Source: an uncultured Candidatus Melainabacteria bacterium (GTDB lineage: Bacteria > Cyanobacteriota > Vampirovibrionia > Gastranaerophilales > Gastranaerophilaceae). From it: a stretch of DNA of 64,000 bases. The notes under the pieces were generated by a model, which worked only from the letters and a program-made list of their open reading frames with translations, was not told the DNA's origin and ran no database searches. Below, piece by piece: positions 24,728 to 26,560 of this stretch (positions are counted from its first letter, which is position 1; every line of letters begins with the position of its first letter). The stretch spans positions 34,652 through 98,651 of the forward strand of contig CAKVGW010000001.1 of NCBI GenBank assembly GCA_934747325.1, written 5' to 3'. A program made the position numbers and the translations under genes.

Positions 24728-24779
24728 TTGAAAAATTTTTATGTTGTTGGTATATAATTTTATTGGACGTTTAGTCCAA
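24728..24779 (+). promoter_or_regulatory. putative promoter and leader palindrome of the GT35 gene
   Basis: TTGAAA (24728) and TATAAT (24753-24758) are spaced 19 bases, slightly long. Just after the -10 box is TTGGAC-GTTTA-GTCCAA (24763-24779), a possible operator near the start point. The rest of the 330-base gap is AT-rich with no gene. Confidence 0.45.
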
Positions 24780-24812
24780 AAGTAGTACACAAAAGAAAAG
24801 GTTTAAAAAATT

Positions 24813-26504
24813 ATGACATTACCAAACGTAGCTTATTTCTCTATGGAAATAGCAATGGATCAATCGCTAAAGACTTATTCAGGCGGTTTAGGATTTTTAG
24901 CTGGTTCTCACATGTTATCAGCTGGTTACTTACAAATGCCTATGGTAGGTGTAACTATGTTATGGTCTTATGGCTATTATGACCAAAGAATCGACCATTC
25001 CGGCAACGTTGAAGTAGCATATATCAGAAAATATTATGATTACTTAGTTGATACTGGTATCACAGTTGAAGTTGATACTTTCGGTGAAAAAGTTAAAGTT
25101 AAAGCATTCAGAGTAGATCCTGAATTATTCGGAACTTGCCCTGTTTACTTGTTAACAACTGATGTTGAAGGTAACAGCGACTGGGCTAAGAGCATTTCTC
25201 ATAAACTTTATGACGGAAATGAAAGAATCAGAATCGCTCAAGAAACTATCTTGGGTATCGCAGGTATTAGAGTACTTCAAGCAGCCGGTTACAACTTTGA
25301 TGTAATCCACATGAACGAAGGCCATGCTCTTCCTGCTGCATTCGAATTATTAAGACAATACAATGGTAACCTTGAAGAAGTTCAAAAGAAAACTGTATTC
25401 ACAACTCACACACCTGTTGCTGCAGGTAACGAAGTTCACTGGGTTGATACATTGTTAGAAGGCGGTTTCTTCGCAGGCGCTTCAAGAGATAGAGCTATTC
25501 AATTGGGTGGCGAAAACTTCTCATTAACAGTTGCAGCTTTAAGAATGTCAAGAATTGCAAACGCAGTTTCTCAACTTCACGGCTTAGTTGCTAACAAAAT
25601 GTGGGAATGGGTTGATGGCAGATGCCCAATCAGAGCTATCACCAACGCCGTAAACCTTCATTACTGGCAAGATAAGAGAATGAATGGTGACAAATCATTC
25701 GACGAATTACTTGCTGCAAAACGTGAAATGAAAGAAGAATTATTCAAATACGTTGCAAACGTAGCTGGTAAGAGATTTAATCCTGATGTATTAACAATCA
25801 CTTGGGCAAGAAGATTTGCAGATTACAAACGTGCTTGGTTAATCTTGATGGATAAAGATAGAATCAATAAATTGTTAGATGAAAACAAAATCCAAATCAT
25901 CTTCGCTGGTAAATTCCACCCTGATGATGTTATGGGTAAAGAAATGTTCAACAAATTATTGAACAGATCTCACACATTGAAGAATGTTGTTGTTCTTCCT
26001 GGTTATGAATTACAACTTTCAGGTATGCTAAAACGTGGTACTGATGTATGGTTGAACACTCCATTAAGACCATTTGAAGCATCAGGTACTTCAGGTATGT
26101 CAGCTAACGCAAACGGCGCACTTCACTTGTCTACATTCGATGGTTGGACAGTTGAAGGTACATTCCCTGGTATCAATGGTTACACTGTTGAATACCCTGA
26201 AATCGACGATGATATGCCTTGGGAAGAAAGACATTGGGCTGATCACAGATGCATGATGGATATCATTGAAAATCAAATCATCCCAACATACTACAACAAC
26301 AAACAAGAATGGGCTAGAATGATGCGTCAAGCAATCAGAACAGCAGAAGCTTACTTCAATTCTGATAGAATGGTTATTGAATACTATAACAGATTGTATA
26401 AGCCAATCGCTCACGATGATTGCTCAGCAGGAGAAAAGAAGAAAGAATTAAACATTTCTGAAACTCCTACATTTGATGCTTGGACTTATTCAAATATCAA
26501 GTAG
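24813..26504 (+). CDS. glycogen/alpha-glucan phosphorylase homologue (GT35) lacking the PLP lysine
   Basis: 563 residues, the short form of the family. N-terminal hallmark VAYFSMEIAMDQSLKTYSGG; the phosphate-binding segment WARRFADYKRA is intact; PFEASGTSGM then S430, where family members have the lysine that carries pyridoxal phosphate (GTSGMK). Codon 26100-26102 is TCA. Glycogen phosphorylases release glucose 1-phosphate and need this cofactor, so the activity is uncertain: it may use another mechanism, bind glucan without catalysis, or be a changed transferase. Codon use suggests high expression. It ends in a strong terminator. Confidence 0.85.
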   Translation: MTLPNVAYFSMEIAMDQSLKTYSGGLGFLAGSHMLSAGYLQMPMVGVTMLWSYGYYDQRIDHSGNVEVAYIRKYYDYLVDTGITVEVDTFGEKVKVKAFRVDPELFGTCPVYLLTTDVEGNSDWAKSISHKLYDGNERIRIAQETILGIAGIRVLQAAGYNFDVIHMNEGHALPAAFELLRQYNGNLEEVQKKTVFTTHTPVAAGNEVHWVDTLLEGGFFAGASRDRAIQLGGENFSLTVAALRMSRIANAVSQLHGLVANKMWEWVDGRCPIRAITNAVNLHYWQDKRMNGDKSFDELLAAKREMKEELFKYVANVAGKRFNPDVLTITWARRFADYKRAWLILMDKDRINKLLDENKIQIIFAGKFHPDDVMGKEMFNKLLNRSHTLKNVVVLPGYELQLSGMLKRGTDVWLNTPLRPFEASGTSGMSANANGALHLSTFDGWTVEGTFPGINGYTVEYPEIDDDMPWEERHWADHRCMMDIIENQIIPTYYNNKQEWARMMRQAIRTAEAYFNSDRMVIEYYNRLYKPIAHDDCSAGEKKKELNISETPTFDAWTYSNIK

Positions 26505-26514
26505 TTTGGTAAAA

Positions 26515-26560
26515 TAAAAAAACGAGGCGATGTTCATCTTGAATATCGCCTCGTTTTTTT
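26515..26560 (+). terminator. rho-independent terminator
   Basis: AACGAGGCGATGTTC (26521-26535) and GAATATCGCCTCGTT (26541-26555), one mismatch, with A-run before and T-run after, so it may work both ways. Confidence 0.85.

Follow-up and report, generated by a model that had tools for sequence, protein, structure and literature searches.

The closest described systems to the gene considered here are alpha-glucan phosphorylases of family GT35, represented by MalP of Escherichia coli, a protein of 797 residues with the classical architecture whose pyridoxal 5'-phosphate (PLP) is bound to a lysine (K646), according to PMC11046441. In glycogen phosphorylase (fold type V) it is the phosphate of PLP that carries out proton transfer, in contrast to fold types I-IV (PMC9081730), and PMC11046441 gives this chemistry for phosphorylase as well. 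The glycogen phosphorylase of Segatella copri (PDB 9l6i, 20yr; 852 residues, of which about 100 precede the part matching our protein) has the lysine in the motif EASGTSGEK. This lysine has been regarded as invariable in phosphorylases. We describe a GT35 gene that lacks it, together with the large natural clade to which the gene belongs. The gene lies in a stretch of 64,000 nucleotides (the window) from an uncultured Candidatus Melainabacteria bacterium (assembly GCA_934747325.1, contig CAKVGW010000001.1, positions 34,652 to 98,651). The gene and the codon in question are the following:

24813..26504, + strand: coding sequence of a lysine-less alpha-glucan family phosphorylase (563 residues, GT35, TIGR02094 short form)
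26100..26102, + strand: codon 430, TCA, a serine replacing the PLP-anchoring lysine (K646 of E. coli MalP)

The first-pass annotation had placed the start of the gene at 25000, which falls inside it since the open reading frame covers the whole interval above. The protein scores 471.3 bits with TIGR02094 (cut-off 191.7) and 81.6 bits with PF00343 (cut-off 27), against only 29.4 bits with the GT5 synthase model TIGR02095 (cut-off 328.45); the NCBIfam model thus rates the lysine-less proteins as normal family members despite the missing defining residue. This short form begins near the block VAYFSMEIAMD. The AlphaFold2 model of the protein has a mean predicted local distance difference test score of 89.3, and its best structural matches are glycogen and maltodextrin phosphorylases, of the GT-B type. 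The closest titled relatives (95-97% identity) are mostly metagenome-assembled genomes of Gastranaerophilales.

In the alignment, S430 occupies the column of K646 of MalP and of the corresponding lysine of GlgP, so that a serine stands where the Schiff base with PLP is formed in those enzymes. The codon and the alignment both confirm the earlier reading of the block as EASGTSGMS. Each protein search scored about 8000 sequences and listed the 120 best; Ser is found at position 430 in 120 of the 120 homologues so listed, and in all 80 loci kept from the 311 confirmed in the genome collection. Across all the loci collected, it is encoded by TCA, TCT, TCC, TCG and, once, AGC. An assembly or sequencing error at 26100-26102 is excluded, because the residue is shared by all these sequences and several codons are used.

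Of the 382 genomes searched at class level, 348 gave a match. Counted by eye, the best match is strong (E of at most 1e-130) in 287 genomes and weaker in 61 more; the residue was read in part of them. One locus per genome was then taken from 30 genomes, mostly picked for weaker matches. The 21 of these loci that are 50-72% identical (L141-L161) have 18 Ser, two Gly and one Thr in place of the lysine, and nine loci at 36-40% identity carry it (L162-L163 and L164-L170). Two more protein searches with divergent members added a sequence of Caenarcaniphilales with Ala (P0129) and two of Vampirovibrionales (P0187, P0198). Vampirovibrio chlorellavorus (P0251) is also among the carriers and, being a named species, offers a defined source of the gene. 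Sorted by residue, the 439 aligned proteins comprise 395 without the lysine and 44 with it (381 and 44 distinct sequences, respectively, over residues 5-530). Gastranaerophilales, Vampirovibrionales and Caenarcaniphilales are all represented on the lysine-less side, whose members are as little as about 48% identical to the window protein and always have a small residue at position 430 (387 Ser, three Gly, three Ala and two Thr).

A maximum-likelihood tree of 59 selected rows placed the 37 lysine-less ones on one side of a branch with a support of 100/100, and a quick tree of 425 distinct cores grouped the 381 lysine-less cores without any lysine-bearing row (support 1.0). The first-pass annotation had suggested looking for a GT35 clade with Ser at this position; such a clade exists and is deep, and the substitution is therefore real. 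An oddity of one species is rejected by the same 395 rows. We infer that ancestors of the clade had the lysine and lost it once, as opposed to never having acquired it; this remains a matter of judgement because both trees are unrooted, long branches meet in the 59-row tree and the 44 lysine-bearing rows all come from one phylum. No lysine-less member was seen beyond the class, a statement barely tested by these 44 rows of a single phylum and by lists of the best 120 of about 8000 matches.

The lysine-bearing TIGR02094 phosphorylases of the cyanobacterial phylum share phylum and core with the lysine-less proteins and keep the residue; over the core, no protein of one set is more than 44% identical to any of the other. 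Two of them are also short (L162 and L163, 571 and 555 residues). Others, in L164-L168 from other genomes of the class, have open reading frames of about 1260 residues with an extra N-terminal part, which in L164 shows weak similarity to BshA and to corynebacterial GlgA models and is followed by a TIGR02094 phosphorylase with EACGTSGMK.

The blocks and residues of the active site on which the comparison turns are located as follows:

25437..25439, + strand: H209, clade-diagnostic (H in 395/395 lysine-less rows; F in 44/44 lysine-bearing rows; W in MalP and GlgP)
25803..25805, + strand: W331, clade-diagnostic, two residues ahead of R333 (W in 395/395 lysine-less rows; F in 44/44 lysine-bearing rows)
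25809..25832, + strand: RRFADYKR, R333-R340, phosphate-site block (R333, R334 and K339 correspond to K534, R535 and K540 of MalP)
25911..25913, + strand: K367, corresponding to K574 of MalP (K in 393/395 lysine-less and 44/44 lysine-bearing rows; without an equivalent in the five GT5 synthases used for comparison)
26031..26033, + strand: K407, candidate relocated or compensating lysine (395/395 lysine-less against 0/44 lysine-bearing rows; I in E. coli MalP and GlgP)
26076..26102, + strand: EASGTSGMS, E422-S430, cofactor-phosphate loop and start of the anchor helix (E422, S424, G425 and T426 in 395/395 lysine-less rows)
26124..26126, + strand: H438, clade-diagnostic (H in 395/395 lysine-less rows; 42 N and two S in the lysine-bearing rows)

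The main catalytic residues of MalP map to the window protein, and the conserved phosphate-site and catalytic residues of GT35 are present in the alignment with MalP and GlgP. Besides the four residues of the cofactor-phosphate loop, H199, N278, W285, R333, R334 and K339 are invariant in the 395 lysine-less rows, and Y398 is kept in 393. MalP and GlgP share 52 positions with the lysine-bearing rows (with 21 or all of the 22 compared). Of these positions, 43 are retained by 90% or more of 37 lysine-less rows. The nine that changed are 64, 66, 228, 238, 241, 279, 368, 379 and 430, where the counts at 64 and 66 (as at column 80) are unsure because the alignments differ there. Fixed in the 395 rows and seen in none of the 44 are, among others, F106, H209, A241, K303, W331, K407 and H438. 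PMC11046441 also lists a third phosphate lysine in MalP, K554; the alignment columns nearby do not show this residue as conserved, and it was not used.

The five GT5 proteins compared were E. coli GlgA and four GlgA-like proteins from the same class. They have a related GT-B fold and share His, Asn, Arg, Lys and Glu columns with the lysine-less proteins. The earlier statement that RRFADYKR and its neighbouring blocks are kept holds, yet R334 and K339 alone do not discriminate between the families because the GT5 synthases have both. R333 and K367 do: the synthases lack a counterpart of either (S at the R333 column) and carry the motifs KTGGL/KAGGL and EPCGL, where the lysine-less proteins have YSGGL and EASGT.

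The reading that we favour, tentatively and with a probability of roughly 0.45, is that of a functional alpha-glucan phosphorylase in which PLP, or some other phosphorylated ligand, is bound non-covalently. It is based on the residue itself, the grouping on a single branch, the kept phosphorylase set, the concerted changes of the clade and the presence of only this GT35 type in most of the lysine-less genomes examined. The active site would still be shaped to place a phosphate-bearing cofactor beside the substrate phosphate; PLP, or another B6 vitamer such as pyridoxamine 5'-phosphate, would most likely sit there without a covalent bond, its 5'-phosphate would perform the usual proton transfer, and glucose 1-phosphate would be produced from maltodextrin or glycogen. 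Because the cofactor-phosphate site is kept, non-covalent PLP or pyridoxamine 5'-phosphate is the simplest form of this reading. We infer activity, direction, substrate and bound cofactor alike from sequence comparison. A natural loss of the PLP lysine is known from sugar enzymes of the aminotransferase fold, e.g. ColD, where a His replaces it and the B6 cofactor is held non-covalently; their fold and chemistry are unrelated to those of the lysine-less phosphorylases. The first-pass annotation held that the protein could not work by the known mechanism without its lysine, which finds no support in PMC9081730 and PMC11046441, where the chemistry is done by the PLP phosphate. Since this phosphate performs the proton transfer, the imine is an anchor and not part of the chemistry, and by that mechanism the loss of the lysine alone does not forbid catalysis. 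In older work, phosphorylase reportedly was still active after borohydride reduction.

Several points weigh against this reading. To our knowledge, no GT35 enzyme works without the lysine, and there is no explanation for an anchor that is lost while the cofactor is retained. The kept residues suit any phosphate-bearing ligand and not PLP specifically, and the columns of H199, N278, R334, K339, W285 and Y398 are mostly common to the GT5 synthases compared. By Z score, the model fits GT5 synthases roughly as well as MalP. The concerted changes (H209, A228, A241, A279, W331, F/P368, K407 and H438) exceed what the loss of a covalent bond needs. Finally, no neighbouring gene is common to the window and the 80 loci, though sets of close relatives share some.

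The small residues at 430, the helix face formed by E399, S403 and K407, and H438 may leave room for a relocated lysine or for a different ligand. The three residues of this face are spaced four apart at one helix (400-409 in the model, with K407 in the final turn); E399 is present in 380 of the 395 lysine-less rows and S403 and K407 in all of them, against 0/44, 11/44 and 0/44 lysine-bearing rows, respectively. An ordinary PLP phosphorylase whose anchor has moved, with K407 or another clade lysine making the Schiff base or holding PLP, would agree with the distribution of K407 and with a residue 430 small enough in 395/395 rows to give passage to another side chain. However, K407 stands nine residues past Y398 in the last helix turn, which in a Rossmann fold would probably put it about 10 Å or more from the cofactor aldehyde, and the 395/0 pattern alone is weak evidence because K303 shows it too, though K303 is also a lysine in MalP and GlgP. 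We consider such a relocation doubtful. Instead of PLP, the site could be filled by some other ligand with a phosphate (a nucleotide, a phosphosugar or a second inorganic phosphate); such a phosphorylase with a different cofactor is unlikely, if less strained than a moved anchor. It would fit the phosphate-site residues that are kept while position 430 varies among small residues only, as if space were needed, as well as the nearly fixed helix face whose E399 and K407 are absent from the lysine-bearing rows. PMC11046441 gives the proposal that PLP entered GT35 by replacing a nucleoside monophosphate, a step which this explanation, if true, would reverse. Against it, the sequence names no ligand, and Y398, W285 and the loop residues flanking PLP are kept. 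We take these residues to be PLP-flanking contacts in the known enzymes. A broader claim, which we consider unlikely, is that of a GT35 lineage across a bacterial class without lysine-bound PLP, using a different phosphate ligand or a free B6 vitamer; in its boldest form it would be a living reversal of the step from a nucleotide-using ancestor to glycogen phosphorylase.

The cofactor-free glycosyltransferase and the sensor proposed by the first-pass annotation are not favoured, as phosphorylase residues are kept where GT5 enzymes differ and, in 20 of the 22 lysine-less genomes examined, no GT35 type other than the lysine-less one was found. A catalytically dead sensor of glucan or phosphate would account for the loss of a residue present in 44/44 lysine-bearing rows, MalP and GlgP; it is very improbable in view of catalytic residues kept in 395/395 rows down to about 48% identity and of the same 20 genomes. 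A nucleotide-sugar-dependent alpha-glucan synthase, or another retaining glycosyltransferase, could draw on the columns shared with GT5, and we regard it as highly improbable: the GT5 hallmark residues are absent and the GT35-type ones kept, GlgA is over the cut-off in 16 of the 22 lysine-less genomes, and the six genomes without it are also without GlgC over the cut-off. A reversion to a GT5-like enzyme is argued against by R333, K367 and ASGT, all kept, and by the absence of the KTGGL lysine, in the comparison with the five GT5 proteins.

Searches of an open-licence PMC library, which misses most subscription papers, showed no paper on lysine-less phosphorylases. The family, the fold and the catalytic set are already known; the loss of the anchor throughout a clade, with concerted changes, is new. 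Such a clade makes it testable whether the Schiff base of glycogen phosphorylase does more than anchor, and whether GT35 can function with another phosphate in the PLP position. Melainabacteria are found in animal guts, and the enzyme bears on their use of glycogen.

Concerning the genomic context, the PF00343 search found only lysine-less GT35 genes in 20 of the 22 lysine-less genomes; the other two (G209 and G213) have a lysine-less gene and a classical phosphorylase. GH77 (MalQ) is present in 20 of the 22 and GlgC is over the cut-off in 15, but single gene absences mean little because genome completeness is not stated. Two genomes (G225 and G237) have two lysine-less paralogues each, the second (L172, L174) being 51-53% identical to the window protein and following a gene of one common cluster, whose member in L172 is an erythromycin-esterase family protein. 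A conserved operon was rejected as a functional clue, the window and the 80 loci having no neighbour in common. Among 20 wider loci taken around divergent members, two have MalQ as the gene immediately upstream, L183 (by Pfam) and L181 (by its cluster and the position of GH77 in G199). These two contain the L158 and L160 members, which group with each other in the 59-row tree, below the groups of Gastranaerophilales and Vampirovibrio. L178 has a member of the same cluster as this MalQ neighbour four genes downstream (by cluster assignment), and two of the 20, L175 (by Pfam) and L177 (by cluster), have divergent genes for a solute-binding protein and a permease.

The leader of the window gene contains one further feature:

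24763..24791, + strand: leader hairpin TTGGAC-gttta-GTCCAA with AGTAGTACACA, right after a TATAAT hexamer at 24753-24758

A strict promoter scan of the leader found no site. The hairpin arms vary among relatives yet pair in several (GGAC/GTCC, GGGC/GCCC and GAAC/GTTC). A permissive script, run without a shuffle control, found some hairpin in 47 of the 63 leaders with the downstream motif, from 81 leaders read (those of the window and L001-L080). In L051, L054, L055, L060, L069, L070 and L079, the contig ends about 150-400 bases past the gene, as if a repeat lay downstream. After the stop codon of the window gene, positions 26519-26559 form an apparent intrinsic terminator with a stem of 13 pairs, a loop of 13 bases, longer than the limit of the scan, and a run of T.
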